Program-made: the position numbers and the translations under genes
Assembly: GCA_021738385.1 (NCBI GenBank)
Contig: JAIPCF010000028.1
Location: 1 to 32,710 of the forward strand
Direction: 5' to 3'
Origin: Sulfuritalea sp.
GTDB taxonomy: Bacteria > Pseudomonadota > Gammaproteobacteria > Burkholderiales > Rhodocyclaceae
DNA length: 32,710 nucleotides
Shown: in pieces, positions 656 to 32,056 of the stretch
Position numbering within the stretch: the first letter of the stretch is position 1
How the letters are laid out: each line of letters starts with the position of its first letter
Notes under the pieces: model-generated
Seen by the model: the letters and a program-made list of their open reading frames with translations, nothing else
Told to the model about the DNA's origin: nothing
Database searches by the model: none

Positions 656-1607
656 GGGAAGCCGCCACGGCCAGCAAGCCGGCACAAGCCAGCCACAACC
701 ACTGCCCACGCTCCACCAGTCCCAGCGCGGCACGAATATGCCCAATACTCGCCGTGTCGCCAGCGCCGACTTTGGGCCGCTGCTCCAGACGCCCGTGATA
801 AATCGCCGCACCGCCCAAGCGCACGGACAGCGCGCCGGCGCCCGCCGCGAGCACCGGACCCGCATTGGGGCTGCTCCAGCTCGCAGCCTGTTGTCGCCAG
901 CAGGAAAGTGCGGCGCGCGTATTTCCCAGCACCGCATAGGTCAAGGCCGTCAAGCGGGCGGGGATCAGATTCAGCAGATCATCAATTCGTGCTGCCGCCC
1001 AGCCAAAATACAAGCGCCGATCGTCGCGGTAGCCCCACATCGCATCGAGCGTATTGGCCAGACGAAACAGCACTGCGCCGGCGCCACCGGCAAGAAGAAA
1101 CCAGAATAGCGTGCCAAATACGGCGTCGTTGCCGTTTTCCAGAATCGATTCCACCGCCGCTCGCGAGACACCCTCCTCGTCAAGTGCCGAGGTATTGCGA
1201 GACACCATCCAGCCCACATGGATACGCGCCGATTCCAGATCATTCGCGGCAAGATCGGCCGCCACGCGTTCGCCATGCTGGCTCAGGCTGCGAGCACCGA
1301 GCGCCAGATAGAGCAGGACCACATCGGCGACCCAGCCCCAGGCCTGATGCCCCAGCCAGACGGCGAGTGCTGCGAAGGGCATTACCAACAGCGTCCAACC
1401 TGCCAGTCCGCGCAGGCGATTCCCCAAAGAGTGACCCGGCGCGCCGGAACGCAGTCGGCTCTCGACCCAGTCAGCGCAGCGACCAAAACCAACCAGGGGA
1501 TGAAAGTTACGCGGCTCACCCAGCCACCGGTCCAGAAATGTACCCGCCAGTGCCGCAGCGACATGCGACAGCTGCGGAAGCAACAGGGAAGGCGACAGCG
1601 GGGGCAT
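648..1607 (-). CDS. cbiB: Adenosylcobinamide-phosphate synthase CbiB/CobD
   Basis: This integral membrane enzyme attaches aminopropanol phosphate to adenosylcobyric acid. The protein is about 319 residues from the ATG at 1607, the usual family length. It shows the N-terminal signature DRWLGEPRNFHPLVGFG, several hydrophobic helices, the conserved block SRNTSALDEEGVSRAAVESI followed by NGNDAV, and the C-terminal AGAGALSVRLGGAAIYHG. The reading frame stays open to an upstream start at 1658, but that would overlap the divergent cobQ start at 1645, so 1607 is preferred. It lies head to head with cobQ with a 37-base gap and runs into cobC. A copy of the dispersed 26-bp repeat (749-774) encodes the segment PKVGAGDTASIG near the C-terminus. 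Confidence 0.93.
   Translation of the reverse strand: MPPLSPSLLLPQLSHVAAALAGTFLDRWLGEPRNFHPLVGFGRCADWVESRLRSGAPGHSLGNRLRGLAGWTLLVMPFAALAVWLGHQAWGWVADVVLLYLALGARSLSQHGERVAADLAANDLESARIHVGWMVSRNTSALDEEGVSRAAVESILENGNDAVFGTLFWFLLAGGAGAVLFRLANTLDAMWGYRDDRRLYFGWAAARIDDLLNLIPARLTALTYAVLGNTRAALSCWRQQAASWSSPNAGPVLAAGAGALSVRLGGAAIYHGRLEQRPKVGAGDTASIGHIRAALGLVERGQWLWLACAGLLAVAASRA
749..774 (-). repeat. Dispersed 26-bp repeat, copy 1 (inside cbiB)
   Basis: Read on the minus strand it matches the repeat consensus (core AGTCGGCGATGGCG, preceded by A residues and followed by ACGGCGA) at 23 of 26 positions. Here it is translated in the cbiB frame as KVGAGDTA. Confidence 0.7.
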
Positions 1608-1644
1608 GGGATAATCGGACAATGAAAGACATGGCATTTTAACG

Positions 1645-3186
1645 ATGGGCGAAAACAAATCCCTTGCGGCCCGCGCCCTGATGGTTCAAGGCTGCACCTC
1701 GGATGCCGGCAAAACCACGCTGGTAGCGGCGCTGTGTCGAATACTAAAGCGGCGCGGTGTCCATGTCGCGCCATTCAAGCCGCAGAACATGGCACTGAAT
1801 TCGGCGGTCACCGCCGACGGCGGCGAGATCGGCCGGGCCCAGGCACTGCAAGCGCTGGCGGCCGTCCTGCCGCCGCGTATCGATTTCAATCCGGTGCTGC
1901 TCAAACCCACCACCGACCAGCGCGCCCAGGTGATTATCCATGGCAAGGCACTGGATACCCTGAATGCGCGCGACTACCACGAGTACAAGCGCGTCGCCAT
2001 GCAGGCAGTGATGGATAGTTGGCAGCGGCTCAGCGACGAATTCGACTGCGTGCTGGTGGAGGGCGCCGGAAGCCCGGCAGAAATCAATTTGCGCGACCGT
2101 GATATTGCCAACATGGGCTTTGCCGAAGCCGCCGACATACCGGTGATTCTCGTCGCGGACATTGACCGCGGCGGCGTCTTTGCGCATCTGGTGGGCACAC
2201 TGGATTTGCTTTCGGAATCGGAGCAGGCTCGCATCAAGGGTTTCGTCATCAATCGTTTTCGCGGCGACATCGGCCTGCTTGAATCCGGCCTCGACTGGCT
2301 GGAGCAACGCACCGGCAAGCCGGTGCTGGGCGTGCTGCCCTATTTGCAAGGCCTGATGCTCGATGCAGAAGATGCCGTCGCCACCGAGACCATCGAGAAG
2401 ACAAGCACCCGTCTCAAGGTGGTGGCTGTCGTATATCCGCGCTGCTCGAACCACAATGATCTCGACCCGCTGCGCCTGCACCCCGAAGTGGATTTTGATT
2501 GGGTTGGACCTGGGCAATCCATTCCCGACTGCGATCTGATCGTGCTGCCGGGTTCCAAAGCCGTGCAGGCCGATTTGCGCTGGCTGCGCGAGCAGGGTCA
2601 CGAGGCGGCGATTCAGCGTCACCTGCGTTATGGCGGCAAGTTGATCGGCATCTGCGGCGGCTTTCAGATGCTGGGTCGCGAACTGCACGACAACCTGGGG
2701 CTGGAAGGCGCGCCCGGCAGTCGTCCCGGTCTCGGTCTGCTCGATTGCGAAACATCGCTGGAACCCGAAAAGCAGTTGCGCAATGTCACCGGCCAACTGC
2801 AGTTGCCGAACTCTCCGGCCATCAAAGGCTACGAAATTCATATGGGCGCGACATGCGGCGCCGCACTGAACCGGCCCGCCGTGATATTCGCCGACGGGCG
2901 CCAGGATGGTGCGCAATCGGCAGACGGTCAGATTTTTGCCAGCTATTGCCATGGCCTTTTCGACCATCCGCAAGCCCTCAGCGGTGTGCTGGCCTGGGCC
3001 GGAATGGCCTCACCATTGACGACAGATTTCGCGCTCCGACGCGAGGCCGATATCGAGCGACTCGCCGACGCGACAGAAGCGGCGCTTGATTGGGCCGTGC
3101 TCGACAAAATACTTGTTCCTGAGATTAAAACTGCGACAGACAAAGCAGCCAAGGCAAGCAAACCGATACCCATTGAGTTGTCATGA
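1645..3186 (+). CDS. cobQ: Cobyric acid synthase CobQ/CbiP
   Basis: This glutamine-dependent enzyme makes four amidations on adenosylcobyrinic acid a,c-diamide to give adenosylcobyric acid. The protein has 513 residues, a normal length. The N-terminal synthetase domain has the P-loop-like [10 protein letters not shown] (residues 16-25), [10 protein letters not shown] and [12 protein letters not shown]. The C-terminal class I glutaminase-like domain has [10 protein letters not shown] with the expected nucleophile Cys337, and [10 protein letters not shown] with His436. The ATG at 1645 is accepted although no strong ribosome binding site is visible. The gene diverges from cbiB/cobC and its TGA overlaps the ATG of the next gene. 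The last 30 or so residues are a lysine- and alanine-rich tail that does not look like part of the conserved fold. No cobalamin riboswitch fits in the 37-base divergent gap. Confidence 0.95.
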
Positions 3187-4394
3187 CCAAAAAAACCCAT
3201 ATCCGGCCTGCCGACATTCGCGGCTATAGCCGTCTCGCGATTGACGCCACCATTGGCTTGACCGGTCTGGTCGAGACCATGCACCACAACATATCCCGAG
3301 CTCCCGTGCCCCTTGGTAAATACACCCAGGAACCCACACGTGGCATCACCGGCTTGGTCTACCGGACCATACAAGGCACGACACGGCTGGTCGGCAGCGG
3401 TATCGACTTGCTGCTGGGGCAACTGCTTCCGCTTCTCGACCGCGAACCGACGGACTCCTCAAGCCGGCGCGAAGCGGTGCTTGCTGCCCTCAATGGCGTT
3501 CTGGGCGATCATCTCGCCACCAGCGAAAACCCCCTGGCGATCCCGATGCAGTTGCGTCGCGATGGGCAAGCACTGAGCTTGAGCCCGCAAGAGCTTGCCA
3601 CCAGGATTCCGGATGCCAACGGCAATATTCTGTTGCTGGCTCACGGGCTGTGCATGAATGACTTGCAGTGGCACCGAAACGGTCACGACCACGGCAAGAT
3701 GCTGGCGAAAGAAGCCGGATCTACGCCGCTGTACCTGCACTACAACAGCGGCCTGCACGTATCGACCAATGGCCACGCCCTGGCCAACATGCTCGAAACC
3801 CTGCTATCCATCTGGCCCGTTCCGGTGGAAAAACTGGTGATCGTGGGCCACAGCATGGGAGGACTAGTCGCCCGCAGCGCCTGCCATTACGCCCAGCTCA
3901 AGCAGCATGACTGGTTGAAACATCTTCAACATATGGTATTTCTCGGTACCCCCCACCACGGCGCACCATTGGAGCGCGGCGGCAACTGGATAAATTTCAT
4001 TCTCGAGCTTAGCCCCTACACCGCCGCACTGGCCCGTCTGGCGAAGGTCCGCAGTGCTGGAATTACTGATCTTCGCCATGGCAGCGTCCTTGACGAGGAC
4101 TGGTTGCATGGCGATCGCTTCGCCCACAAGAAGAAGCACAAGCGCGTTCCGCTACCGGAAAACGTCGAGTGCTATGCCTTGGGCGTTACGCTGGCAAAAA
4201 CGCCGGGCAATCCAGGCGAATCGCTATTGGGCGACGGGCTGGTGCCTTTGCGTAGCGCCCTCGGTCAGCATGCCAACAAGAATCTCGATCTGAAAATTCC
4301 TGTTTCGCATCAGTGGTCGGGGTTTGGAATGAACCACATGGATCTGCTGGATAACGAAGGAGTTTCAAAACAATTGAAGAAATGGCTGGGCTGA
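3183..4394 (+). CDS. Alpha/beta hydrolase, lipase/PGAP1-like
   Basis: This is a 403-residue serine hydrolase with an alpha/beta hydrolase core in the second half. Visible elements are the oxyanion-region motif LLAHGLCMN near residue 155, the nucleophile elbow GHSMGG with Ser224, [14 protein letters not shown], a candidate acid Asp351 in LGDGLVPLR, and a candidate His385 in GMNHMDLL. These are the signs of lipases and esterases of the DUF676/PGAP1 kind. The first 130 residues carry no recognised motif, and there is no signal peptide, so a cytoplasmic or membrane-peripheral enzyme is likely. The start overlaps the stop of cobQ (ATGA), so the two should be co-translated although no metabolic link is obvious. 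The substrate is unknown. With fadD just downstream, an acyl ester or stored lipid is plausible but inferred. Confidence 0.85.
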
Positions 4395-4431
4395 TTTGGA
4401 ATGAAGCACGGATAGAACTCAAAATCGCACC

Positions 4432-4450
4432 CAACATCGGCTTGATGTTG
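4432..4450. promoter_or_regulatory. Small inverted repeat ahead of fadD
   Basis: The arms CAACATC (4432-4438) and GATGTTG (4444-4450) are perfect complements around a 5-base loop. They sit in the 92-base gap between the hydrolase and fadD, about 36 bases before the fadD start, and just ahead of a TACAAT box at 4455-4460 that could be a -10 element. The repeat could be an operator for a fatty-acid regulator or a weak terminator. The sequence alone does not decide. Confidence 0.3.
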
Positions 4451-4486
4451 TGATTACAATAGAAAAAACTTCTGGAGACATTCATC

Positions 4487-6145
4487 ATGGAAAAGATCTG
4501 GCTTAGTAGCTATCAGGCAGGTGTACCCGCTGAAATCGATATCAACGAATTTCGCTCCATTGGCGATCTCTTCGATAAAAGCGTACAGAAATATGGCCCA
4601 CGCAAGGCCTATATCAACATGGACAAGGCGATTACCTACACCGAACTGGAACACCAGTCGGCGGCCTTTGGCGCCTACTGCCAGTCCGTGTTGAAATTGC
4701 AGAAAGGCGCCCGCATCGCGCTGATGATGCCCAACCTGCTGCAGTACCCGATCTGCCTCTATGGCGCCTTGCGCGCTGGCTACACGGTGGTGAACTGCAA
4801 TCCGCTTTATACCGAGCGCGAGCTTGAACATCAACTCAAGGACTCGGGGGCCGAGGCGATCGTCATCGTCGAGAACTTTGCCAGCGTACTGGACAAGGTC
4901 ATTGCCCGAACCCCGGTCAAGCATGTGCTGGTGACACAACTGGGCGACATGCTGGACTTCCCGAAGCGCATGATCGTCAACGTGGTGGTCAAGCACGTCA
5001 AGAAAATGGTCCCGGCGTGGAATCTGCCGAACGCCATCGAACTGCGCGACGCATTGATCGAGGGTGGCCGCCACCCCCTGCAGGCAGTCGAGACAGGCCA
5101 TGACGATCTCGCCTTCCTGCAGTACACCGGTGGCACCACTGGCGTATCCAAAGGTGCGATGCTGACTCACCGCAACATCATCGCCAATCTGCAGCAGGCC
5201 CACGCATGGATCAGGTCCTCACTGCGCGACGATGAGCTCATCATCACCGCTTTGCCGCTTTATCATATCTTCGCACTGACCGCGAATTGCCTGACTTTTT
5301 TCAAAATCGGCGCCACCAATCTGCTGATCACCAATCCGCGCGACATTCCCGGTTTCATCAAGGAAATCGGCAAATATCCGTTCTCGACGATTACGGGCGT
5401 CAATACACTGTTCAACGCCATGATCAACAACCCGGATTTCGCCAAGATCGACTTGAGCAAACTGCATCTGACGCTGGGTGGCGGCATGGCAGTACAGCGC
5501 GCAGTGGCCGAGCGCTGGAAACAGATTACCGGCGTGACACTGATTGAAGCCTATGGCCTTACCGAAACTTCACCTGCGGCCACCATGAATCCACTCGACA
5601 TTCCCGAATACAACGGCTGCATTGGCGTACCCATATCATCGACCGAAGTCGTGATTCGCGACGATGACGGCAAGGATCTGCCGCTGGGCGAGCCTGGCGA
5701 ATTATGTATTCGCGGACCGCAAGTAATGAAAGGCTACTGGAATCGCCCCGAGGAAACCGCCAAGGTCATCATGGCCGACGGTTTTCTGCGCACCGGCGAC
5801 GTGGCGGTGATGGACAGCAAGGGCTTCGTCAAGATTGTCGATCGCAAGAAAGACATGATTCTGGTCTCCGGCTTCAATGTCTATCCGAACGAGATCGAAG
5901 ACGTGCTCGCCATGCATCCAGGGGTGCTGGAATCCGCAGCCGTCGGCGTGCCGGATGAAAAAACCGGCGAAGCCATCAAGATATTCGTGGTCAAGAAAGA
6001 TCCGGATCTGACCGAAGCCTCGATTATCGAACACTGCCGCAAACAACTCACCGGCTATAAAGTTCCGCGACAGATTGCTTTCCGCACCGAACTGCCAAAG
6101 ACAAACGTTGGCAAGATTCTGCGCCGCGAGCTTCGCGACAAGTAA
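4487..6145 (+). CDS. fadD: Long-chain fatty acid-CoA ligase FadD
   Basis: This enzyme activates free fatty acids with ATP and CoA to acyl-CoA, the entry point for beta-oxidation or for re-esterification. The 552-residue protein has the ANL-superfamily motifs in order: P-loop [11 protein letters not shown] (213-223), the YGLTETSPA motif starting at residue 356, [42 protein letters not shown], and the C-terminal lysine in [11 protein letters not shown]. Length and motifs match proteobacterial FadD. The ATG at 4487 is preceded by GGAGA at a good distance. It is probably the start of its own transcript, followed closely by the PHA-system gene. Given the wax-ester genes 11 kb away, it may feed acyl-CoA to storage as well as to degradation, which is inference. 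Confidence 0.95.
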
Positions 6146-6200
6146 CCCTGGCGCCAGTCAGCAAAGCGACTTTCACCACGCGCGAAGCGGAGATACGGAA

Positions 6201-6485
6201 TTGAGCGAAATACTGATTTGCCGTCCGCACGGCACGACACTCAAACGCGCCCGCAAGGGCGCCGAGCACATTGCTGAAGAACTCGGTGAGGAATTTGGCC
6301 TCGACCACGAATGGGACGGCAACACCCTGCGCTTTCAGCGCATGGGTGTCACCGGACATATCGACGTGAGCAAAAAGGAAGTCGAGATTTACGTCAAGCT
6401 CGGCTTTCTGCTCATCGCACTGCGCCCGCGCATTGAGCAGGAAATCAACCGTTTCTGCGACGAGAATTTCGGGCCGGTAGCTTAG
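6201..6485 (+). CDS. Polyhydroxyalkanoate system family protein (PHA_gran_rgn)
   Basis: This small protein of about 94 residues resembles the polyhydroxyalkanoic acid granule-region family. It opens SEILICRPHGTTLKRARKGAEH, continues with WDGNTLRFQRMGVTGHIDVSKKEVEI, and ends with VKLGFLLIALRPRIEQEI. The domain is mostly beta strand with a hydrophobic C-terminal helix. Its biochemical role is not established; family members occur beside PHA genes. I chose the TTG at 6201 because it is preceded by GGAG and makes the protein begin where the family begins. The reading frame stays open further upstream, but that stretch overlaps fadD in another frame and does not look like protein. It follows fadD by 55 bases and is probably co-transcribed. 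Confidence 0.78.
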   Translation: MSEILICRPHGTTLKRARKGAEHIAEELGEEFGLDHEWDGNTLRFQRMGVTGHIDVSKKEVEIYVKLGFLLIALRPRIEQEINRFCDENFGPVA

Positions 6486-6591
6486 TTTTCGCTGCCATTC
6501 GGAACTCGTGATTGGGATACACGCAACCTGTTACGGTGCGGTACCTATCCGGTCATTGGGGTTTAAACCTGACCTCAGTCGTGTCCGCTTA

Positions 6592-6623
6592 GTGCCCTTA
6601 TGTGCAACTCCACATAAGGGCAC
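6592..6623. terminator. 13-bp perfect hairpin between convergent genes
   Basis: The arms GTGCCCTTATGTG (6592-6604) and CACATAAGGGCAC (6611-6623) are perfect complements around the loop CAACTC. The hairpin lies between the PHA-system gene (rightward) and the dehydrogenase (leftward), where a shared terminator is expected. It lacks a clear run of T on either side, so a small non-autonomous repeat is an alternative. Confidence 0.45.
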
Positions 6624-6726
6624 ATTTGAGTCGTGACCGCTTCAGCAACTTTCATGGACATGACACGTAGTCTCCTGCGCCTCTGCAAGCGCATCGAATA
6701 TCAGTGACAACTTCGGACAATCAGGT

Positions 6727-7629: not shown

Positions 7630-7659
7630 GATCGTTTCCTGAATGTTGAAGGATGAGTT

Positions 7660-8798: not shown

Positions 8799-8824
8799 TC
8801 GCCGTCTTACCATCGCCGAGTTTT
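8799..8824 (-). repeat. Dispersed 26-bp repeat, copy 2 (intergenic)
   Basis: It matches the consensus at 22 of 26 positions when read on the minus strand. It lies in the 234-base gap between the hypothetical gene and ccdA. One minus frame through it reads TKLGDGKTARQVAR and stays open for about 56 codons between stops, but it has no start codon, so I do not call a gene. Confidence 0.65.
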
Positions 8825-11596: not shown

Positions 11597-12530
11597 CACA
11601 TTTATCGCTGAAACACCGCTTGCCGATACCCGGGAAATCATTGCCGGACTGGTTCACCCGATTGCGCATATCGCTCCCAAGTATTTTTACGATGCGCGGG
11701 GCTCGATGTTGTTTGAGGAAATCACCGAGCTCCCCGAGTACTACCCGACGCGCACAGAGCGAGCGATCATGAGCGAGCATGGTGCAAAGATCGCGCAAAA
11801 AGTCGGCGCTGGCGGTACGGTGATCGAACTGGGTGCGGGCAGTTGCGAGAAGGCGCGCGCGTTGTGCGAGCTGGTTCAGCCCGCACATTTTGTGGCAGTC
11901 GATATTTCGGCCGAGTTTTTGCACGAGGCGGCGGATGGATTGCGCAGTGCCTGTCCCGCACTTGATGTGCGAGTGGTTGCGGCGGATCTGACGGCAGAAA
12001 TGCCGATGCCTGCCGATCTGCCCCGACAAAAGCGCCTGGTGTACTACCCCGGCTCGTCGATCGGGAACTTCAATTTTCCAGAAGCACTGAATCTGCTGGA
12101 ACGCTGTCGGCATCTGATCGATGACGACGGTGCGCTGTTGATTGGCGTCGATCTGGTCAAGGATGTGGCGGTGCTCGAAGCCGCCTACGACGACGCCGCA
12201 GGTGTGACTGCTGCATTCAATCTGAATGTGCTGAGCCACGTCAATAGCTTGATCGGCAGTGATTTCGACCTCGATCAGTGGCGACACAGGGCGCTGTTCA
12301 ACGCTGTCGACTCGCGCATTGAAATGTATCTGGAGGCGCGCACCAAAATCCGGGTGAGCTGGCCTGGTGCGCAGCGCGACTTTGAGCAGGGCGAACGCAT
12401 CCACACCGAGAACAGCCACAAGTATCGCGTCGATGACTTCACCGATCTGCTGAATCGCGCCGGCTTTCGTCATGCCGATATCTGGTGTGATTCGCGCCAC
12501 TGGTTCGCCTGTGTCCTCGCCCGCCCCTGA
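11589..12530 (+). CDS. egtD: L-histidine N(alpha)-methyltransferase EgtD
   Basis: This enzyme trimethylates histidine to hercynine with S-adenosylmethionine, the first step of ergothioneine synthesis. The 313-residue protein has [26 protein letters not shown], the SAM motif [13 protein letters not shown] (around residues 78-90), the family block [16 protein letters not shown], and the C-terminal IEMYLEART and IHTENSHKY that form the histidine pocket. All look intact. It overlaps gor and is followed 25 bases later by the decayed egtB. A copy of the dispersed repeat (11798-11823) encodes KVGAGGTV immediately before the SAM motif. Without EgtB the pathway would stop at hercynine unless another locus completes it. 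Confidence 0.92.
11798..11823 (+). repeat. Dispersed 26-bp repeat, copy 7 (inside egtD)
   Basis: It matches the consensus at 23 of 26 positions on the plus strand. It is translated in frame as KVGAGGTV, just before the SAM-binding motif of EgtD. Confidence 0.65.
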
Positions 12531-14814: not shown

Positions 14815-16908
14815 ATGTTCGGTTCAATGTCCATTCGTGCCCGACTGGTGCTGTCCTTCTCAGTGCTGCTGGGTTTGTTGTTTGCGGTAACGGCCGTCTC
14901 GTTGCAGCGCTCTGACGAACTGACAGGCAAAACCCAGGAGATAGTTGACTATCAGGCCCATCGGGTCTTTCTCGCCCAGCGAGCCAATCGGCATGCCCAG
15001 GCAGCGGCGATTTACTTGCTCAATTTGCTGCAAACACCGGATCGGGAAAAACGTGTCCCGCTCTATGCCGCCATGGATGCGGAAATTGCGGCTTCCGATG
15101 AAGCTGTCAGCGAGCTCGGCAAGACCATGCTGCCGCCGGACATTCAGACCGACATTGAACGCGTTGCCGACTTGCGCCAGCGCTACGGCGCCCTGTTTCA
15201 GGAAACCGTCGAACTGATCGAACTTGAAGGCCCGGAAAAGGCGCGTGGACACTTTGAAGACAGAACGCAAAAGGTACTTAATACCTTGCTCTTTGAAACT
15301 CTCGCGCTGGAAAACCATCTGCAACAGTTGATGCAATCAGAGTTGGAAGGCCTCAGGCAGTCCGCCGCCAACGCCCGACTGCTAGCGATCTTCCTGGCAC
15401 TAAGCGCACTGGCCACCGGAGGCATTCTCGCCTGGGCCATTGCCCGCAGTATTGTCAAACCGGTACAGGAGGCTGTCGCGGTAGCCGAGTCAATCGCCAG
15501 CGGTGATTACAAAAAGGACGTGCCGCAAGGCAGGCAAGATGAAATTGGCGCCTTGCTGCGTTCGCTGACCATCATGCGCGACAGCATTGCAAGTCGCGAG
15601 GACAGCATTTTGCGCCTGGCCTACGTCGATACCCTGACCAATCTGCCGAATCGCACGCGCTTTCTCGAGATCCTTGGTGCATTGCCTGCAGCGAGCAGTG
15701 GCGCCCTGGTAATTTTGGGTATCGACCGCTTCGCGCCGATCAACAACGCCCTTGGCCATGCCGTCGGCGACCGCTTGTTGTGCGAGATCGCCGGGCGTCT
15801 CAAGCATGCGACAGACGAGTCGGCAATAGTGGCACGCCTATGGGGCGACCAGTTTGCACTGCTGCTTGATGGCGCCGACAAAACTGCGGTGGCGGAATTG
15901 GTTCGGCAGATTCTTTTGGAATTGCGTGCCCCGATGATCGTCGATGGGCAGCACCTTGACGTCGACGCCAGCTTCGGTGTCGCCTTGTATCCGCAGGACG
16001 GAACGAGCGCGGCTCGCTTGCTGCGCCGGGCCGACTTGGCCATGATCAACGCCAAACGACGGCATGACAGCGTCGCCTTTGGTTCCGACCTTGATGCCGA
16101 GCCCGCCCATGAACAACTCTCATTGATCGGTGAGATGCGAGAAGCCCTGGCGCGCCGCGAGTTCGTGGTGTACTACCAACCCAAACTGAATCTGGCAAAG
16201 AACCGTATTACCAGCGCCGAAGCCTTGATTCGCTGGCAGCATCCGGAAAAAGGCATGATCCCGCCGATGCGCTTTATCCCCTTCGCCGAGCAAACCGGAT
16301 TCATCCGCGAGATCACACCCTGGGTACTCGAGGATGTCATCCAGCAAGCTGCGCAATGGCAACGTTCGGGAATGGACATCGTGACATCAGTCAATCTTTC
16401 GACACATGATTTGCTGAATCACGATCTGGTAGCGCAGGTACTGGCGCTGCTGAAAGACTCGGGCCTGCCCGCCAGCCAACTGTGTCTGGAGATAACCGAA
16501 AGCGCCCTGATGGACGAACCGGAACTGGCGCTCAAACATCTGGACGAACTGGCCGCTCACGGTATCAAGCTCTCGATTGACGACTACGGCACCGGGCAGG
16601 CCTCATTGGCCTACGTCAAGACCCTGCCCGTCAACGAGTTAAAAATCGACCGTGCCTTCATTACCGGGATCGATGCAACACCGAAGAACGCCGCGATCGT
16701 TCGCTCGACGATTCTCCTGTGCCGTGAACTGGGACTCTCGGTGGTTGCCGAAGGTGCCGAAACCCCCGCCGAACTCGCCTGGCTGGGGAGCAACGGATGC
16801 GATGTGGTGCAGGGCTATGGCGTGGCCAAACCGATGGCCCTGCCGGACTTTCTCACCTGGGTGCGCGAGTTCAACAGAATAGCCGTATCACCAACGCCGA
16901 CTTTTTGA
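14815..16908 (+). CDS. Membrane HAMP-GGDEF-EAL protein, probable c-di-GMP phosphodiesterase
   Basis: This 697-residue protein has a first membrane helix (about 9-28), a periplasmic helical sensor (about 29-190), a second helix (about 191-211), a HAMP domain (about 212-265), a GGDEF domain (about 268-425) and an EAL domain (about 440-690). The cyclase motif reads WGDQF (343-347) instead of GGDEF, so diguanylate cyclase activity is unlikely. The EAL domain looks complete: EAL at 469-471, SVNLST, LEITES, the DDYGTG loop, LKIDRAFI with the lysine, AEGAET and QGYGVAKP. So it should hydrolyse c-di-GMP in response to a periplasmic signal, with the GGDEF domain perhaps binding GTP as a regulator. The last nine codons (RIAVSPTPTF and stop) are supplied by a copy of the dispersed repeat read backwards. 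Confidence 0.9.
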   Translation: MFGSMSIRARLVLSFSVLLGLLFAVTAVSLQRSDELTGKTQEIVDYQAHRVFLAQRANRHAQAAAIYLLNLLQTPDREKRVPLYAAMDAEIAASDEAVSELGKTMLPPDIQTDIERVADLRQRYGALFQETVELIELEGPEKARGHFEDRTQKVLNTLLFETLALENHLQQLMQSELEGLRQSAANARLLAIFLALSALATGGILAWAIARSIVKPVQEAVAVAESIASGDYKKDVPQGRQDEIGALLRSLTIMRDSIASREDSILRLAYVDTLTNLPNRTRFLEILGALPAASSGALVILGIDRFAPINNALGHAVGDRLLCEIAGRLKHATDESAIVARLWGDQFALLLDGADKTAVAELVRQILLELRAPMIVDGQHLDVDASFGVALYPQDGTSAARLLRRADLAMINAKRRHDSVAFGSDLDAEPAHEQLSLIGEMREALARREFVVYYQPKLNLAKNRITSAEALIRWQHPEKGMIPPMRFIPFAEQTGFIREITPWVLEDVIQQAAQWQRSGMDIVTSVNLSTHDLLNHDLVAQVLALLKDSGLPASQLCLEITESALMDEPELALKHLDELAAHGIKLSIDDYGTGQASLAYVKTLPVNELKIDRAFITGIDATPKNAAIVRSTILLCRELGLSVVAEGAETPAELAWLGSNGCDVVQGYGVAKPMALPDFLTWVREFNRIAVSPTPTF
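16880..16905 (-). repeat. Dispersed 26-bp repeat, copy 3 (3' end of the EAL gene)
   Basis: It matches the consensus at 23 of 26 positions on the minus strand. It lies antisense to the gene and supplies its last codons. The TGA stop at 16906 follows directly. Confidence 0.65.
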
Positions 16909-18942: not shown

Positions 18943-18945
18943 GGC

Positions 18946-24436: not shown

Positions 24437-24462
24437 AAAAGTCGGCGCTGGTGATACGGCGG
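24437..24462 (+). repeat. Dispersed 26-bp repeat, copy 8 (just after the reductase stop)
   Basis: It matches the consensus at 23 of 26 positions on the plus strand and begins 13 bases after the TAG of the acyl-CoA reductase gene. Confidence 0.7.
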
Positions 24463-24680: not shown

Positions 24681-24742
24681 AAAGAATTCAAGCGATGTGA
24701 TACCGCAGATGTACATGGTTGCGAAAACCTTGATTGTCGCAA

Positions 24743-26047: not shown

Positions 26048-26059
26048 CGTGATCACCAC

Positions 26060-26620
26060 TTATCCATATATAAAGAATGGTTACTCTACTCTTTCAGCAA
26101 AATTCACTTGATTCAAGAAATTAATCGCCTCGATATCAGCAAATTATTCCCGGCCGTACACTGAATTGAGCTTTGCAGGGTCGAACTGCTGGTCACTGCG
26201 GCCGGCTTTCCTGGTGCCCCTGCTTCCAAACACAGGGCGAGCTGAAATGCGGCAGATCGGGCGAAGACCGACTGGACCAGCCATCCACGATGCAGGAGAT
26301 CCATCCGGATGCAGGTGGCGTCAGCGTCAATCAAAACGTGAAATCGGCGACACGTCGCCGTATCGCCATCGCCGAGTTTTACGGCAACCCTTCATAGGAT
26401 GATCTGAGGGCGAGCTTTCTTTCTCCTGCATGAAGGTTTCTGCCAACCACTACGCAGTCGCGACGAGCCCCGGAATTGAATGCCAATCGAATTGAAGCCG
26501 TGCGTTTTCGCCGCTATCTCGAATGCGGCATCCTCGCCCAAGACTTCGGCCGCTGCGCTTAGCCCCTCCCGGCGTGATTTCCGCTGTTTGATCCTGGCCG
26601 GGCGATGCGCTGTGGTGAAC
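26060..26620. other. Intergenic region with a dispersed repeat, no convincing gene
   Basis: This 561-base stretch separates the outer membrane gene from the antiporter operon. It is AT-richer near 26080-26150 (a likely promoter for the leftward outer-membrane gene, though no exact boxes stand out). Copy 4 of the dispersed repeat lies at 26355-26380 and is flanked by a small palindrome, CGGCGAC with GTCGCCG. Several short open frames cross it on both strands (for example 26113-26334 leftward and 26173-26397 rightward), but none has a good binding site or a family pattern. Confidence 0.6.
26355..26380 (-). repeat. Dispersed 26-bp repeat, copy 4 (intergenic, closest to consensus)
   Basis: It matches the consensus at 25 of 26 positions on the minus strand. 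The minus frame through it reads KLGDGDTATCRRF. It lies next to the short palindrome CGGCGAC-A-CGTCGCCG. Confidence 0.75.
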
Positions 26621-28132
26621 TCATGGCATTCCCTGCAGATACTCCCGTTGTGCGATGAGTTGCGCCCAGGCAAGCGGGCTCCAGGCGATATCGGAGAACA
26701 TGCCGGCGGCCAGCACGGCACCGGCGGTGACCAGCGGCGGGATCAGCAACAGCCACGCCGTCTCGCGCCATCCGCGTGCCGCCGTGCGCTCGTTCGGAAA
26801 GGCAGCTGGCAGTGGCCTGAGCCAGGCGCGCCAGAGGATAGGCAGGAAATAGGCGGCATTGAGCAGGCTTGAGGTCCACAGCACCCAGACAGCCCAATCC
26901 ATGCCGGCTGCGGTGGCGCCGTCGATCAGCCAGGCTTTGCTGACCGCGCCGGCGGTGAGCGGGGCGCCCATCATGCCAAGCGCACCGATGCTGAAGGCAA
27001 GAGTGGTCAACGGCATGCGCCGGCCCGCGCCGTCCATTTCGCTGACCTTGTGGATGCCCAGCGTCTCGGCGAAGTTTCCCGCGCAGAAGAACAGGGTGAT
27101 TTTCATCAGTCCCTGGTGCACCAGATGCACCAGTCCGCCCACGGTGCCGAGGGGACCGAACAGCGCCACGCCAAGCACGATGTAGGAGATCTGGCTGATC
27201 GTCGAGAAGGCCAGCCGCCTTTTCAGATCGTCCTGGAACAGCGCGCGGAAGCTGCCCCAGAGAATGGTCACCGTCGCCATGACAGCCAGCGGCGTGAGCA
27301 GATCCAATGACTGCGCAAACTCGATGCCGTAGACCTCGTAGACAATCCTGATGATGCCGAAGGCGCCGGCCTTGACCACGGCGACCGCATGAAGCAGCGC
27401 CGAGACCGGCGCCGGGGCCACCATCGCCTGCGGCAGCCAGCCGTGCAGCGGCACGATGGCGGCCTTGACGCCGACACCGGCGATCAAAAGCAGAAAAATG
27501 GCTTGCAGTTGCCAAGTGGGCGCGTCGGCGAGCGCCGCCAGAACGCCGCCGTGGGTGAATTCAATCTGGCCGAGCAGGCTGTGCAGCCAGACGATGCCGG
27601 TCAAAAGCAGCGCGCCGCCGCCCAGTGTATAGGCCAGGTACACAGTGCCGCCCTGCATCGCCTTGTCGGTGCCGCGATGCACCACCAGCGGGAAGGTGGT
27701 CAGGGTCAGCAGTTCGTAGAAGACGAAGAAGGTGAACAGGTTGCCCGCCATGGCGATGCCCATCGTCGCGGTAACGCAGAGACTGAAGAAGCCGAAGAAG
27801 CGGCTGCGGTGCGGCGAACGTTCGAGGTAGCCGATGGCGTAAAGCGTCGTGAACAGCCAGAGCAAGGCAGATAGCGTGACGAACAGCAACGCCAGCGCAT
27901 CGGCCTTGAAGGCGAGATCGATACCCGGCAGTACGGCGTAGCGAAAGCCGTATTCCTCGCCGGCGGCAACGCCGGCGAGGAGCAGGCCGACAAGGAGCAG
28001 CTTTGCCAGTGCACCGAGCAGGTTGAGCGCGGTGCGCCAGCGAATGCGCGACTCGGGCAGAGTGAAGATGATCAGGCCTGGCAGCAGCGAGGAGGCCATG
28101 ACGGCGAGGGGCAGTATTTCGTTGCTCGTCAC
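26621..28132 (-). CDS. Large ND-type antiporter subunit (NuoL/MnhA- or MnhD-like), second copy
   Basis: This is a roughly 503-residue membrane protein of the proton-conducting transporter family shared by complex I and Mrp antiporters, with about 14 hydrophobic helices. Key motifs are FFVFYELLTLTTFPLVVH with the charged Glu in a helix, GVGVKAAIVPLHGWLPQAM with the channel lysine and histidine, APAPVSALLHAVAVVKAGAFG, and KRRLAFSTISQISYI. The HGWLPQAMVAPAPVSALLHA form is closer to NuoL/MnhA than to classical MnhD. The GTG at 28132 overlaps the stop of the preceding subunit gene (GTGA). It is the last gene of the operon. A separate DUF4040 gene upstream supplies what is the C-terminal part of MrpA in other bacteria. 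Confidence 0.88.
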   Translation of the reverse strand: MTSNEILPLAVMASSLLPGLIIFTLPESRIRWRTALNLLGALAKLLLVGLLLAGVAAGEEYGFRYAVLPGIDLAFKADALALLFVTLSALLWLFTTLYAIGYLERSPHRSRFFGFFSLCVTATMGIAMAGNLFTFFVFYELLTLTTFPLVVHRGTDKAMQGGTVYLAYTLGGGALLLTGIVWLHSLLGQIEFTHGGVLAALADAPTWQLQAIFLLLIAGVGVKAAIVPLHGWLPQAMVAPAPVSALLHAVAVVKAGAFGIIRIVYEVYGIEFAQSLDLLTPLAVMATVTILWGSFRALFQDDLKRRLAFSTISQISYIVLGVALFGPLGTVGGLVHLVHQGLMKITLFFCAGNFAETLGIHKVSEMDGAGRRMPLTTLAFSIGALGMMGAPLTAGAVSKAWLIDGATAAGMDWAVWVLWTSSLLNAAYFLPILWRAWLRPLPAAFPNERTAARGWRETAWLLLIPPLVTAGAVLAAGMFSDIAWSPLAWAQLIAQREYLQGMP

Positions 28133-29583
28133 GGCCCGCTTCCCACGGCAAGCAAGCGCAGCAGATCGACACCGCGCAGGCCGAGCAACACACTGGCGGC
28201 AGCCAGCGTGAAGGCCGTCCATTCCAGCAGCGGCGGCGCCCGGTGCGATAGATGTCGCCGTTCGCCCTGCGCCGGCACCAGAAAGGCCTGGCGCAGCACG
28301 CGGAAGACGTAGATCGCCGCCAGCAGGCCGCCGGCTATGATCACCGCGACCAGCCACCACTGCCCCTGCGTCAATGCGGCATCAATCAGCAGCCACTTGG
28401 CGAGGAAGCCGCCCGAAGGCGGCAGGCCCATCAGTGTCACGCCGGCCAGGGCGAAGGCAAACAAGCTCACCGGCATGCGGCTGGCCACACCCGCCACGTC
28501 GGCGACGGCGTCGCGCCCGGTGACATGGATCATCGCACCCGCCGCCGCGAACATCGCCGCCTTGGCCAGGCCGTGGGCCACCACTTGCATGCCGCCCGCC
28601 TGCAGTGCCAGTCCATCGGGTCCGAGCAGCGGAAAGATCAGGAACAGGTAGCCCAGCTGGGCGATCGTGGAATAGGCAACCAGCATTTTCAGGCGCACGG
28701 CACGGATTGCCTGCCACGAGCCCCACAGTATTGCTGCGCTGCCCAGCAGCGCCGGCAGCCAGGCGATGGTGCCGGTCAGCGGGGCAAACGGGCCGAGCCA
28801 GAGGCGCAGGATCAGGTAGAACGAGGCCTTGACCACCAGTGCCGAGAGCAGCGCCGAGACCGGCGCCGGTGCCCCGCCGTGGGCGGGCGGCAGCCAGTAG
28901 TGGAACGGGAACAGCGCGGTTTTCAGCATCAGCCCGAGCAGCATCAGCGCCGCTGCGATCCAGACCGCAGAGGCAGCGCTGGCATTGATCAGAGGCGTCA
29001 GCGTGGCGATCGAAACCGTGCCGTAAGCGCCGTAAATCAGCGCGACGCCGAGCAAATACATCCCTGAACCAATCAGCGTGGCGAAGAGGTAGCGCAGGCC
29101 CGCAGCGATTTGCGTTGCATTGCCGCCGGCCGCGACCAGGCCAACGGCGGCCAGCCCGACAATCTCCAGCGTGACGTAGAGATTGAACAAGTCGGCGGCA
29201 AGAAAGAGTGCGTTGAGTCCCGCCAGCAGGAATCCCGACAACGGCCAGAAATACCGGGCGACGGATGCGTCGGCGGCGAAGTAGCCGCGCGCGTAGAGCA
29301 GCAGCGGCAGTGCGACCATATGTGTCAGCAACAGCATTGCGGCTGCCAGTCCGTCTGCTATGAGGTCGATGCCCAACGGGGCGCCCCAGCCGCCGACCGC
29401 GTGTCTTATCGCCGTCCCGCCATCGCCGACTTTAACGGCAAGATCGATGGCCAGCCACAGTTGCGCTGCCACGCCCACAATGGCCAGCCGCGCGCCTCGC
29501 GTCGGCCCGAGAAGGAAGGCGCCGCTGGCCCAGAACAGCGGCAGCAGGATCAGCCAGGCAAGAGGATCAAAAAACTCAGTCAT
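28129..29583 (-). CDS. mnhD: Cation/proton antiporter subunit D (MnhD/MrpD)
   Basis: This is a 484-residue ND-type subunit with about 14 membrane helices. It has LFNLYVTLEIVGLAAVGLVA with the helix-5 Glu, LKTALFPFHYWLPPAHGGAPAPVSALL with the conserved Lys and the PAHGGAPAPVSA form usual in MnhD, VVKASFYLILRLWLG, and KMLVAYSTIAQLGYL. The ATG at 29583 overlaps the end of mnhC by 8 bases. It has a basic partner in the next gene, which is a second large subunit. Copy 5 of the dispersed repeat encodes KVGDGGTAIRH in the loop after the first helices (29409-29434), just ahead of the AVGGWGAPLGI segment that the family normally has. Confidence 0.9.
   Translation of the reverse strand: MTEFFDPLAWLILLPLFWASGAFLLGPTRGARLAIVGVAAQLWLAIDLAVKVGDGGTAIRHAVGGWGAPLGIDLIADGLAAAMLLLTHMVALPLLLYARGYFAADASVARYFWPLSGFLLAGLNALFLAADLFNLYVTLEIVGLAAVGLVAAGGNATQIAAGLRYLFATLIGSGMYLLGVALIYGAYGTVSIATLTPLINASAASAVWIAAALMLLGLMLKTALFPFHYWLPPAHGGAPAPVSALLSALVVKASFYLILRLWLGPFAPLTGTIAWLPALLGSAAILWGSWQAIRAVRLKMLVAYSTIAQLGYLFLIFPLLGPDGLALQAGGMQVVAHGLAKAAMFAAAGAMIHVTGRDAVADVAGVASRMPVSLFAFALAGVTLMGLPPSGGFLAKWLLIDAALTQGQWWLVAVIIAGGLLAAIYVFRVLRQAFLVPAQGERRHLSHRAPPLLEWTAFTLAAASVLLGLRGVDLLRLLAVGSGP
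29409..29434 (-). repeat. Dispersed 26-bp repeat, copy 5 (inside mnhD)
   Basis: It matches the consensus at 23 of 26 positions on the minus strand, in the sense direction of mnhD, and is translated as KVGDGGTAI. Confidence 0.65.
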
Positions 29584-29878
29584 CGCGCGTCGCCGGCAGA
29601 GTGTAGGCACCGGTTAGCTTGTGCAGGCGCCGCGTCAACGCCAGCGCCAAAGCAGTTGCCGCAACGGAAACAACGATGCCGGTGAGCACCATCGCCTGTG
29701 GCACGGGGTCGACCAGTCCGGCGCGCTGGGCCAGTCCGATGAGAATTAGAAAGGCGCCGCTGCCCATCAGGTTGAAAGCGAGGATGCGACGCAGCAGGTG
29801 TGCGAGCAACATCACGCCGGCCACGCCCATGGCGAAGAGAATCGCTCCCGTGCCGGCAAAGATGAGCCCCGTGCTCAT
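29576..29878 (-). CDS. mnhC: Antiporter subunit C (MnhC/MrpC, NuoK-like)
   Basis: This is a 100-residue protein with three membrane helices, homologous to NuoK. Visible features are GTGAILFAMGVAGVMLLAHLLRRILAFNLMGSGAFLIL and DPVPQAMVLTGIVVSVAATALALAL, which contains the family signature DPxPQAxVLTxIVVxxA. The ATG at 29878 overlaps the end of mnhB by 4 bases (ATGA), and its own end overlaps the mnhD start by 8. Longer upstream starts in the same frame would lie inside mnhB and are rejected. Confidence 0.92.
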   Translation of the reverse strand: MSTGLIFAGTGAILFAMGVAGVMLLAHLLRRILAFNLMGSGAFLILIGLAQRAGLVDPVPQAMVLTGIVVSVAATALALALTRRLHKLTGAYTLPATRDD

Positions 29879-30519
29879 GCGAGGAACAGAAACAGCCCGG
29901 CGAGGATCAGGCCTAGCGACACGGTCAGGCCAGCCTCGATCAGCAGAATCAGCGCACCGGCGAATTCCGGCGGAAAGTGCAGCAACGCGCCGTTTGCCAG
30001 CAGTGCGGAAGCGACAACGAGGAAGACCAGAAAGCCCCCGGCCAGCCCTGCACGCATGAACAGCCGTGGCGCGTTCCAGCCGGGCAGAAGGCCGGCCAGA
30101 TGCAGCAGTACTGCCGCAGCGCCGAGCACCGCACCGGCCTGGAAAGCGCCGCCTGGCCGGTGCGCGCCAGCCCACAACAAATACACGGCGGCCAGCAGCA
30201 TCACCGGCACGGCGACTCGCGCGAGCACCTGCAGCACGGGTTCGTGGGATGCGGCAGGGGCCTTTCCCTCACGGGGGCTGACGGCGAGCACCACCAGCAG
30301 CACCAGCAGCAGCACCGCGATTTCGAGCAGCGTGTCGTAGCCGCGAAAGTTCAGCAGCACGGCGGTGACCGGGTGTTCGACGCCGCTCGCGGCCATGTTT
30401 GCGGCTACAGCGGCCGGCAGATTCACTTTTGGCGAAGGCAGCGCAGACAGCTCAAGCATCGCCACGATCAGAACGAAGGCGAACAGCGCGGCGAAAATAA
30501 TTATCGCTGCGCGCTTCAT
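29875..30519 (-). CDS. mnhB: Antiporter subunit B (MnhB/MrpB)
   Basis: This is a 214-residue membrane protein. The N-terminal third has the MbhE-like part with NFRGYDTLLEIAVLLLVLLVVL, the family signature. The C-terminal two-thirds has the MnhB domain with LLWAGAHRPGGAFQAGAVLGAAAVLLHL, including the conserved G-H-x-P-G-G-A-F-Q pattern, and several hydrophobic helices. In bacteria with a fused MrpA the NFRGYDTLxE part belongs to MrpA; here it is joined to MnhB. The ATG at 30519 overlaps the stop of the DUF4040 gene (ATGA). Confidence 0.9.
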   Translation of the reverse strand: MKRAAIIIFAALFAFVLIVAMLELSALPSPKVNLPAAVAANMAASGVEHPVTAVLLNFRGYDTLLEIAVLLLVLLVVLAVSPREGKAPAASHEPVLQVLARVAVPVMLLAAVYLLWAGAHRPGGAFQAGAVLGAAAVLLHLAGLLPGWNAPRLFMRAGLAGGFLVFLVVASALLANGALLHFPPEFAGALILLIEAGLTVSLGLILAGLFLFLA

Positions 30520-30878
30520 GATCGCCCCCGCAGGGTCGCCCCAAGGTGGCGCAGCCAACGACGTGGAGCAGACACAGTCTGCGAACCAGTGCTGCCCCCT
30601 TCCCCGGAAAGGGGGGCGGAGGATTGGTCGTCCTGCTCGCGTCCGCGCAGCACACCGATGGCGTCAAGCAACAGCGCCCCGGTGAGCCCCGCGCCGATGG
30701 CGGCCTCGGCCAGAGCAATGTCGGGGGCGGCCAGTCGCGCCCAGGCCAATGTCATCAGCAGGCCGAAGACAATGAAGAGGATCACCGCACGGAAAATGTC
30801 CGGCGTAACCAGCGTGCGCCAGGCGCTCCAGAGCAACGCTGTCGCGAGCAGCAGATCAAAGGTCAAGCCGGTAGTCAC
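30516..30878 (-). CDS. DUF4040/MbhD-like antiporter subunit
   Basis: This is a 120-residue membrane protein with the DUF4040 signature PDIALAEAAIGAGLTGALLLDAI. It corresponds to MbhD of archaeal hydrogenases and to the C-terminal part of MrpA. The start is a GTG at 30878 that overlaps the mnhG stop (GTGA). After the domain there is an extension of about 40 residues (SSAPLSGEGGSTGSQTVS, RRWLRHLGATLRGRS) that does not look like membrane protein. The DNA under it holds a G/C-rich inverted repeat (CCCCCTT 30595-30601 with AAGGGGG 30609-30615), so an intergenic repeat may have been captured into the reading frame. Confidence 0.83.
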   Translation of the reverse strand: MTTGLTFDLLLATALLWSAWRTLVTPDIFRAVILFIVFGLLMTLAWARLAAPDIALAEAAIGAGLTGALLLDAIGVLRGREQDDQSSAPLSGEGGSTGSQTVSAPRRWLRHLGATLRGRS

Positions 30879-31189
30879 GGCTTGTTCTCACCTTGCTCGC
30901 CACGCCACGGTGCCAGTCTCAGCGCGTCGGCGCGGCGCGCGATTGCATAGCTCACCGCTGCACTGGCCACCAGCGCTATCGGCCAGATCAGCAGTAATTT
31001 CAGTGCAGCAGCGAGACTGTCCGCCTGCAGGGCGAGGCCGGCAAGCAGGCACCCCAGGCCCAGGTTGTCGGCCTTGGCAAGCGCATGCAGCCGTGTGTAG
31101 ACGTCGGGAAAGCGCAGCAGGCCGACGGTGCCGGCGAAGTAAAAGAAGGCGCCGAGCAGCAGCAGCGTCGTGCTGGCGAATTCAGTCAT
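30875..31189 (-). CDS. mnhG: Antiporter subunit G (MnhG/MrpG)
   Basis: This is a 104-residue protein with three membrane helices. It contains LLLLGAFFYFAGTVGLLRFPDVYTRLHALAKADNLG, the hallmark of MnhG (GLLRFPDVYTRLHAxxKxxxLG). The ATG at 31189 overlaps the mnhF stop by 8 bases; the reading frame extends upstream inside mnhF but without family similarity. It ends in a 4-base overlap with the DUF4040 gene. Confidence 0.93.
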   Translation of the reverse strand: MTEFASTTLLLLGAFFYFAGTVGLLRFPDVYTRLHALAKADNLGLGCLLAGLALQADSLAAALKLLLIWPIALVASAAVSYAIARRADALRLAPWRGEQGENKP

Positions 31190-31463
31190 CGCCCATGTTC
31201 TCCTGATCCTTATCCTGCCAGGCACGCCGGGCAAAAGCGACTCCGGCAATGGCCGCCAGCAGTGCCAGTGTCAGCGCCACATCAACCAAAGCGGGGGCAG
31301 CGCCGGCATAGGCCAGCAGCACGAGTACGCCAACGCCGGTGCTGCCGAACAGCAGTGCGGTCAGCATGCGATCGGCCGGCGTCGGTCCGCGCGCGGCGCG
31401 CATCAGGGCCACGACCAGATTGAGAAGCAGGAACAACGCCAGCGGAAGCTCCAGCCCCGTCAT
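31182..31463 (-). CDS. mnhF: Antiporter subunit F (MnhF/MrpF)
   Basis: This is a 93-residue protein with three membrane helices and the MnhF pattern RAARGPTPADRMLTALLFGSTGVGVLVLLAY followed by VDVALTLALLAAIAGVAFAR. The conserved RGPxxxDR motif is present. The ATG at 31463 overlaps the mnhE stop (ATGA), so translation is coupled. Confidence 0.93.
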   Translation of the reverse strand: MTGLELPLALFLLLNLVVALMRAARGPTPADRMLTALLFGSTGVGVLVLLAYAGAAPALVDVALTLALLAAIAGVAFARRAWQDKDQENMGDD

Positions 31464-32056
31464 GGACCTTCCCCCCGCTCCCATCCAGAGGAAGGGGGTG
31501 ACAGTCGTTCGCCGCTTTGCGGCTTTATGTCGTTGACTGCGCCGCCCCTGGGGCGGCCCGGTGGGCGGTGCTCCACCCCGAACAGACGCGCAATGTGGGC
31601 TTCAAGTGCACGCGCCGAAGCTGCCACTGGCAAGCGTTTGTCAAGCACGTGCAACTTGAGGCGATCACCGTCGAGTCTGACACCCAGAGTGCCAGGCATC
31701 AGTCCGAGCGTATTCAGCATCAGGACCCGCGGTGAGCCTACCGGTAGGGCAAGTTCGAGTTCGAGAAACTCCGGCCGCAGATCGGGACGCGGACGCAAAG
31801 CCATCCATGCGACCTGAGCGCCGCCGTGCAGCGAGTTCCAGAGGAAGAAGCCGGCAAAGCCGAGAAATCCGGTAATGCTGAAGCGTCGTCGCGACGGTGG
31901 TTGCAGATAGAGGCTGGCCGAGGTCGCCGTGGCCACAGCGACCGCGCCCAGTCCCCAGGCCTCCGATTGCCCCTCGGCCAGCACCCACCACAAGAGCGCG
32001 AACATCGGTGCGCGGCGCAACACTGCCGCCGTCACGCCATCGCCGACTTTTGTCAT
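31460..32056 (-). CDS. mnhE: Antiporter subunit E (MnhE/MrpE)
   Basis: This is a protein of about 198 residues from the ATG at 32056. The MnhE fold is seen in LGFAGFFLWNSLHGGAQVAWMALRP, LPVGSPRVLMLNTLGLMPGTLGVRLDGDRLKLHVLDKR, which holds the family block SLTPGT-like LGLMPGT. The start is unsettled: ATGs lie at 32107, 32065 and 32056. A strong AGGAGGT (32081-32087) is best placed for an ATG at 32073, which is out of frame and gives a six-codon leader whose TGA overlaps the ATG at 32056. Copy 6 of the dispersed repeat supplies KVGDGVTA directly after that ATG. The C-terminal 35 residues (from EHRPPGRPRGG to SGWERGEGP) look like translated non-coding DNA. Confidence 0.87.
   Translation of the reverse strand: MTKVGDGVTAAVLRRAPMFALLWWVLAEGQSEAWGLGAVAVATATSASLYLQPPSRRRFSITGFLGFAGFFLWNSLHGGAQVAWMALRPRPDLRPEFLELELALPVGSPRVLMLNTLGLMPGTLGVRLDGDRLKLHVLDKRLPVAASARALEAHIARLFGVEHRPPGRPRGGAVNDIKPQSGERLSPPSSGWERGEGP
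32026..32051 (-). repeat. Dispersed 26-bp repeat, copy 6 (5' end of mnhE)
   Basis: It matches the consensus at 23 of 26 positions on the minus strand. It begins two codons after the mnhE ATG at 32056 and encodes KVGDGVTAA. Confidence 0.7.

Follow-up and report, generated by a model that had tools for sequence, protein, structure and literature searches.

The 32,710-bp sequence analysed here (the window) is a whole contig, JAIPCF010000028.1, of a 3.34-Mb draft genome of Sulfuritalea sp. from the family Rhodocyclaceae (assembly GCA_021738385.1; 162 contigs, 82% complete). Genes for CbiB, EgtD, a GGDEF-EAL protein and MnhD- and MnhE-like proteins are found in it, and eight copies of a 26-bp motif are dispersed in and between its genes. 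A first-pass annotation had drawn attention to these eight copies, and all of them were recovered in place and strand with 0 to 3 mismatches to AGTCGGCGATGGCGNNACGGCGA, compared to none in 100 dinucleotide shuffles of the window. When expressed as 25-mers of the genus consensus (AAAGTCGGCGCTGGCG, two free positions and ACGGCGA), the copies carry 0 to 4 mismatches each and are arranged as follows.

749..773, minus strand: copy in cbiB; 0 mismatches; sense frame, KVGAGDTA
8799..8823, minus strand: copy between genes, after a DsbD/CcdA-like gene (DsbD_TM); 4 mismatches; intergenic by the gene caller
11799..11823, plus strand: copy in egtD; 1 mismatch; sense frame, KVGAGGTV
16880..16904, minus strand: antisense copy at the 3' end of the GGDEF-EAL gene (Pfam EAL, GGDEF); 3 mismatches
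24438..24462, plus strand: copy directly past the stop of a short-chain dehydrogenase/reductase (SDR)/reductase gene; 2 mismatches; intergenic by the gene caller
26355..26379, minus strand: copy between genes; 2 mismatches; intergenic by the gene caller
29409..29433, minus strand: copy in an mnhD-like gene (Proton_antipo_M, PF00361); 1 mismatch; sense frame, KVGDGGTA
32026..32050, minus strand: copy at the start of the mnhE open reading frame (ORF), upstream of the MNHE domain; 2 mismatches; sense frame, KVGDGVTA

No further site within 6 mismatches of the 25-mer was present in the window, and the reversed window had none. According to a simple, unbenchmarked gene caller, which was used for all gene calls in this study, four of the eight copies are sense, one is antisense and three (8799, 24438 and 26355) are intergenic. 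The first-pass annotation had read the copies in cbiB, egtD, mnhD and mnhE in one shared K-V-G frame and the copy in the EAL gene as antisense, and both readings hold. The mnhD-like site is also occupied in genome G017 (L155). As the copy in the mnhE ORF precedes the MNHE Pfam match (PF01899), which begins at residue 36, this copy may fall outside the true gene.

The motif can be written as AAAGTCGGCG(C/A)TGGCG-R-N-ACGGCGA, with sharp ends and two loose inner positions. Its logo was built from 281 distinct sites in 117 genus stretches and 30 stretches of the window's own genome, all selected for motif presence. The 26-bp logo reads A-AAGTCGGCG, C (86%) or A (10%) and TGGCG, with one more A (67%) in front, followed by two loose positions and ACGGCGA. 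The first loose position (14) prefers A or G, and the second (15) C, G or T. Information exceeds 1 bit at 22 positions and is 0.73 bits at the two end positions, with nothing conserved outside the 26 bp. There are three GGCG units, spaced 6 and 8 bp, and no palindrome was found in the 26-bp consensus. The logo does not merely return the query, because the search pattern did not include the additional A residues at its 5' end and had A at position 8, where C prevails in the logo. In the window, position 8 is A in four copies, C in three and T in one, and in G002, a single-contig genus mate of 3.80 Mb, it is C in 91 of the 100 strict copies listed; the use of A as well as C is a possible sub-dialect of the window genome.

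A genome-wide count yielded 448 copies at no more than 3 mismatches (205 and 243 on the two strands) in the window's own genome, compared to 1 and 0 for a reversed-pattern control. In a search of 61 genomes, 35 to 672 copies were found in each of the 31 genus genomes, the lowest numbers being in G016 (35), G021 (126) and G025 (183), and 0 to 5 in each of the 30 others. The motif is therefore over-represented on both strands, as are the DNA uptake sequences (DUS) and uptake signal sequences (USS) of other bacteria. Of 150 family genomes, 15 reach 200 copies or more and fall in six genera (g1, g32, g43, g62, g70 and g88); another five contain 17 to 54, and the other 130 contain no more than 10, with the control reaching up to 7. 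At the level of the order (399 genomes), the 386 genomes outside the family have at most 9 matches each, with controls of up to 5. Copies in the Sulfuritalea dialect do occur in other families of the order, namely five of nine matches in G257 and four of four in G047, and these could be the result of horizontal transfer or contamination.

Exact matches in public records comprise at least 117 stretches. Among 80 listed records, most are metagenome-assembled genomes designated 'Sulfuritalea sp.', 'Rhodocyclaceae bacterium' or 'Rhodocyclales bacterium', and a few are labelled as Sulfurisoma, Rugosibacter, Propionivibrio, 'uncultured beta proteobacterium' and others. In one 6.1-kb stretch (L042, JALHPU010000019.1), nine copies lie on a single strand between 228 and 5928, far more densely than elsewhere; most are 149-340 bp apart, and two gaps measure about 2 kb. 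At least 120 viral-contig stretches from IMG/VR (L389-L508) contain an exact core match, with a few holding up to six copies, and phage or prophage DNA may carry the signal. Extra copies number 5.9 per 100 kb in the viral stretches and 14.9 in host stretches, both sets having been selected, by slightly different patterns, for having a copy, and the viral records may include host flanks.

For unbiased statistics, G002 stretches stand in for the window's own genome, and 400 kb were sampled as 20 pieces of 20 kb. The mismatch spectrum is bimodal: 68 copies have 0-4 mismatches and 5 have 5, and from 6 upward the numbers are at background level (9 sites versus 7 for the reversed control). Decayed copies do not form a continuum in this sample. 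A k-mer search made without the motif returned AGTCGGCGCTGG as the top 12-mer (40 seen, 0.8 expected). An element spreading by copy and paste should vary along its whole length and leave a tail of decayed copies.

Coding density in these calls was 0.906. The 68 copies comprise 28 intergenic, 20 sense and 20 antisense ones, an intergenic enrichment of 4.4-fold; 25-mers lying entirely between genes make up 8.1% of the total (binomial p about 1e-13). The 244 copies in genus stretches comprise 95 intergenic, 77 sense, 66 antisense and 6 partial ones. Since copies are enriched between genes and sense and antisense copies are equal in number in G002, the repeated unit is DNA rather than a peptide, and the shared KVGDGxTA peptide is a side effect of the sense frame that occurs most often. 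One could suppose that KVGDGxTA is a functional peptide, such as a loop or a binding site, that has spread by convergence, and frame 0, which yields it, is indeed the commonest frame among sense copies (17 of 20 in G002 and 59 of 77 in genus stretches). This is hardly credible, as half of the 40 intragenic G002 copies are antisense, 28 of the 68 copies are intergenic, and the peptide is dispensed with in orthologues. A peptide repeat is ruled out as a general explanation by the copies that are antisense or intergenic. An RNA element was also rejected: an Rfam scan of the window at gathering scores found no family, and the motif is strand-neutral in genes.

KOPS (FtsK-orienting polar sequences) and Chi are short functional DNA motifs of 8 bp that occur genome-wide with a strand bias. 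A DNA recognition site with such another job (Chi-like, bound by a nucleoid or partition protein, or serving recombination or self-marking in defence), held by purifying selection and not by uptake-driven conversion, would account for several properties of the motif: the recognition-type logo, the strand-neutral use in genes and the change of dialect described below fit any trans-acting DNA-binding recogniser. G002 has 124 strict copies, and the 100 listed span 14 kb to 2.88 Mb of the 3.80 Mb, with both strands used throughout. Over these 100 copies, strand polarity by replichore was not seen (maximum 24, null mean 28.4, p 0.97), and the spacing fits a random process (Kolmogorov-Smirnov p 0.67). 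In the 20 stretches, GC skew switches sign near 0 and near 1.9 Mb, and only the stretch at 760-780 kb departs from this pattern. In the absence of polarity and with random spacing, a KOPS-, Chi- or partition-like geometry is not seen in the part of G002 tested, unlike in KOPS and Chi themselves, and a replichore-polar motif was rejected. We consider such a site with another job unlikely. Paired terminators were rejected as well, as inverted pairs less than 60 bp apart numbered only 4 among 312 copies, which argues against any general role in termination.

Hundreds of near-identical dispersed copies might also be produced by a small mobile repeat copying itself into genes and spacers. The small dispersed repeats of cyanobacteria and REP (repetitive extragenic palindromic) elements are 20-30 bp long and are present in hundreds of copies in and between genes, and the palindromic elements of Rickettsia are longer, palindromic, in-frame insertions that are tolerated inside proteins. 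To decide between insertion and replacement, EgtD and CbiB were each aligned with 29 non-self orthologues (30 loci of each). For both proteins, 28 of the 29 are gap-free at the site, which favours replacement; the exceptions are L281 in EgtD, with a 4-residue gap inside the site, and L320 in CbiB, with gaps just before it. The four closest EgtD orthologues, all from the genus, carry the motif at 3 mismatches, and the seven closest CbiB orthologues, also all from the genus, carry it at 1 to 4 mismatches without an indel. The remaining orthologues of the two proteins, many of them from the genus, have 8 to 13 mismatches at this place. L-G-x-G residues are present at the site in many CbiB orthologues that lack the motif, in keeping with the caution of the first-pass annotation that the peptide could be partly native.

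A broader comparison was made with a motif-poor genus mate, G016 (527 kb), and the outgroups G032, G035 and G036. From 188 distinct coding sites, 88 best matches of query and genome were obtained, and 36 pairs (33 distinct sites) showed at least 35% identity with the site spanned; some of these may be paralogues. Twenty-five pairs are ungapped, with 2 to 17 mismatches at the site, and three of these have no more than 4, so that G016 retains near-copies at some sites. Residue identity in the 36 pairs is 40% at the motif versus 67% over the alignment, indicating that the places occupied are permissive. Nucleotide alignments to G016 spanned 22 of 320 sites, all of them coding. Sixteen show no net length change (14 are gap-free), with 2 to 12 mismatches and four at 4 or fewer, and the other six differ in net length by -12, -7, -5, +1, +3 and +11. 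As 16 of 22 sites are length-neutral, 25 of 36 pairs are ungapped and nearly all EgtD and CbiB orthologues are gap-free, most of the coding copies arose, or disappeared in G016, by substitution in place within tolerant loops.

Some of these data do favour a mobile repeat: gaps at the motif are present in the remaining 11 of the 36 pairs, compared to 3.55 predicted by these alignments; two of the 11 would be consistent with insertion, as about 8-9 residues are missing from the other protein; and among the 22 spanned sites there are no intergenic copies, although 28 of 68 G002 copies are intergenic. On the other side, most tested coding sites are equal in length in motif-poor genomes, variation is concentrated at two positions, there is neither a tail of decayed copies nor a palindrome in the consensus, and the HslU site, discussed below, holds different dialects in different genera. 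A small mobile repeat is therefore quite improbable. Mobile insertion and a Rickettsia-type element were rejected for most coding sites on the basis of the EgtD and CbiB orthologues, the 36 pairs and the G016 alignments. The motif differs from cyanobacterial repeats and REP elements in its mostly insertion-free coding sites, lack of a palindrome, recognition-type logo and dialects, and from the Rickettsia elements, with which the first-pass annotation had compared it, in being non-palindromic, in mostly not being inserted at the tested sites and in having half of its intragenic copies antisense. That annotation had described the element as mobile or copy-corrected and tolerated inside proteins. 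It is indeed genome-wide, tolerated in genes and kept alike beyond the needs of protein function, but mobility at coding sites is not supported, with orthologues mostly matched in length, no decayed continuum and only two loose inner positions.

Beyond the six motif-rich genera, altered dialects were found in two further genera, g69 and g90, making three dialects in all. Genome G098 (g69) has 38 copies, and 24 of the 26 listed have GTCGACG in place of GTCGGCG. De novo k-mer searches of 132 kb of G098 recovered AAAGTCGACGCT (15 seen, 0.08 expected) and AGTCGACGCTGG (16 seen, 0.11 expected), and those of 119 kb of G166 (g90) recovered AGTCAGCCGTGG (6 seen, 0.04 expected). A generic pattern covering the three dialects was counted at no more than 1 mismatch. 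Its frequency per Mb is 113 to 176 in motif-rich sets, 11 in G016, 17 in G076 and 0 to 5 in G032, G035 and G036, some of these sets measuring only 28 to 60 kb.

At one site in hslU, the dialect found is that of the genome's own genus in some cases, with small margins. In G002, a motif copy lies in the variable middle loop of HslU, and the Sulfuritalea-type motif is present with 4 or fewer mismatches in 9 of 23 hslU genes (G002, G001, G004, G007, G012, G017, G025, G153 and G199). Six sites were scored against the dialects. The G098 site, AGTCGACGCTGACG..ACGGTG, has 2 mismatches to its own dialect versus 4 to the Sulfuritalea type, and the site of G119 (g90), AGTCAGTCCTGGCG..ACGCCA, has 4 to the g90 dialect versus 6 to the Sulfuritalea type; the G002 and G012 sites fit the Sulfuritalea type best, each by one mismatch, and the G166 site is degenerate, with 7 to 11 mismatches. 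In a tree of this single gene, the motif-poor G016 falls inside the motif-rich genus (nodes 98/95 and 92/86). As G016 is nested in this way, its scarcity of copies looks derived, and most likely G016 lost the motif. This probable loss within the genus suggests that the motif is dispensable, which speaks further against a DNA site with another job.

Another repeat and a second, possible one were encountered. The former, of about 110 bp, is present in the window as two inverted copies, at 31457-31573 on the minus strand and at about 30514-30638 on the plus strand. With a 4.6-kb query it was matched in many genus genomes, at about 73-86% identity among the matches listed, and one copy has 5 additional partial matches in the window's own genome. 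The latter concerns G032, in which stretches L214-L223 are enriched in 12-mers unrelated to the motif, such as CGAACCCAGCGA (11 seen, 0.0 expected), which may represent a separate repeat.

Abundance on both strands, an intergenic excess, position-specific conservation with two loose positions, in-place substitution at most of the tested coding sites, permissive placement, dialects in sister genera and different dialects at one HslU site were all observed in this analysis. A trans-acting recogniser would explain why most of the letters are fixed and two vary, why strand and frame make little difference, why tolerant sites are occupied, and why dialects shift in concert and a lineage can lose the motif. 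Of known processes, biased uptake of DNA with subsequent recombination is the one that also spreads such a signal. The motif is thus probably an unusually long, uptake-sequence-like (DUS/USS-like) signal for recognition of self DNA, kept by biased uptake and recombination. The recogniser would favour DNA bearing the motif and would most likely be a minor pilin of the type IV pilus of the competence machinery, and recombination of DNA taken up from kin would spread and repair copies wherever a gene or spacer tolerates them. The existence of the recogniser, its being a minor pilin, DNA uptake as the process and transformation as the driving force of the spread are inferred.

Uptake sequences are established in two families, Neisseriaceae and Pasteurellaceae, and their origin, spread and dialect change have been argued from these. 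The USS of Pasteurellaceae has an A-rich 5' end followed by a G-rich core and is a non-palindromic, extended motif, and the same holds for the motif described here. The core of the latter is longer than the 9-12 bp of the two known families, and we therefore regard it as a DUS-like variant and not as a filed member of either. DUS of Neisseria lie in permissive parts of conserved regions and face one-mismatch forms or unrelated sequence, often with gaps (Treangen and colleagues, PMC2397512), and dialects are a hallmark of DUS (PMC3630211). The motif resembles the DUS of Neisseriaceae in its many copies in and between genes (hundreds to thousands), its lineage-following dialects and its permissive placement (PMC2397512, PMC3630211), and also in that new DUS sites face near-matches or unrelated sequence (PMC2397512). 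It differs from DUS, for which ComP is the receptor, in its unrelated sequence, its length (26 bp versus 10-12), its lower copy number (about 113-176 per Mb by the generic pattern in motif-rich stretches) and its occurrence in another family. Dialects are also shared with USS, which has two of them (PMC12616744). The USS core, AAGTGCGGT, is 9 bp long (PMC5217627), and the gene-end bias described for USS of Pasteurellaceae (PMC2346458) is not found here. In the literature searched, mostly open-access, we found no report of an uptake sequence in Rhodocyclaceae or Rhodocyclales, or of this repeat, and in a text search by motif letters the papers listed contain the 10-mer AAAGTCGGCG only and none of the three longer strings.

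Several observations weigh against an uptake signal, in addition to the excess of gapped pairs, the two pairs that would fit insertion and the lack of spanned intergenic sites mentioned above. Concerning the motif itself: the pattern used to pick the logo sites, at no more than 4 mismatches, left the two loose positions unscored; the motif has about twice the length of a DUS or USS core; it has fewer copies per genome than the 943 to 5918 of DUS (PMC3630211); no gene-end bias was detected among 34 and 115 copies (p 0.76 and 0.86); and copies are also present in viral stretches. Concerning individual sites: many genus EgtD orthologues and five CbiB orthologues (G030, G018, G005, G010 and G007) lack the motif; the margin between dialects at the G002 HslU site is a single mismatch; and HslU has no copy within 4 mismatches in G091, G061, G099, G132, G177, G165 and G076 (best 6 to 9), all from motif-bearing genera. 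Concerning the competence genes: the channel protein ComEC agrees with an uptake system in being matched in 60 of the 61 genomes, 54 of them over the cut-off, but it is equally common without the motif and is not diagnostic; in the motif-bearing G021 and G030 it falls under the cut-off, perhaps due to incompleteness. Pilins of the ComP_DUS family (PF16732) are encoded in 55 of the 61 genomes, 30 of the 31 from the genus and 25 of the other 30, and those in 11 translated genus loci, the window genome's own excluded, are near neutral and not strongly basic. As PF16732 matches occur with or without the motif, and the pilins are heterogeneous in type, this family is not diagnostic of the receptor. 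For Pasteurellaceae, PpdA/ComN has recently been proposed as the receptor pilin (PMC12616744).

With these points taken into account, we consider the chances about even that Rhodocyclaceae-like betaproteobacteria possess a third, independently evolved system of the uptake-sequence type for recognising self DNA. In this reading, the signal would measure 26 bp, be non-palindromic and consist of three GGCG units; there would be at least three genus-level dialects and a recogniser other than ComP; and each dialect shift would rewrite hundreds of genomic sites together, including some in conserved housekeeping genes like hslU. If this is true: the drive model could be tested independently in one more lineage, which combines a long signal and several dialects with an apparent loss in G016; coevolution of signal and receptor would offer a route to a new receptor; repeated peptides inside proteins would have to be viewed with caution, as they can be imprints of DNA-level signals; and the finding would point to natural transformation as a force shaping environmental betaproteobacteria that are mostly known through metagenomes.

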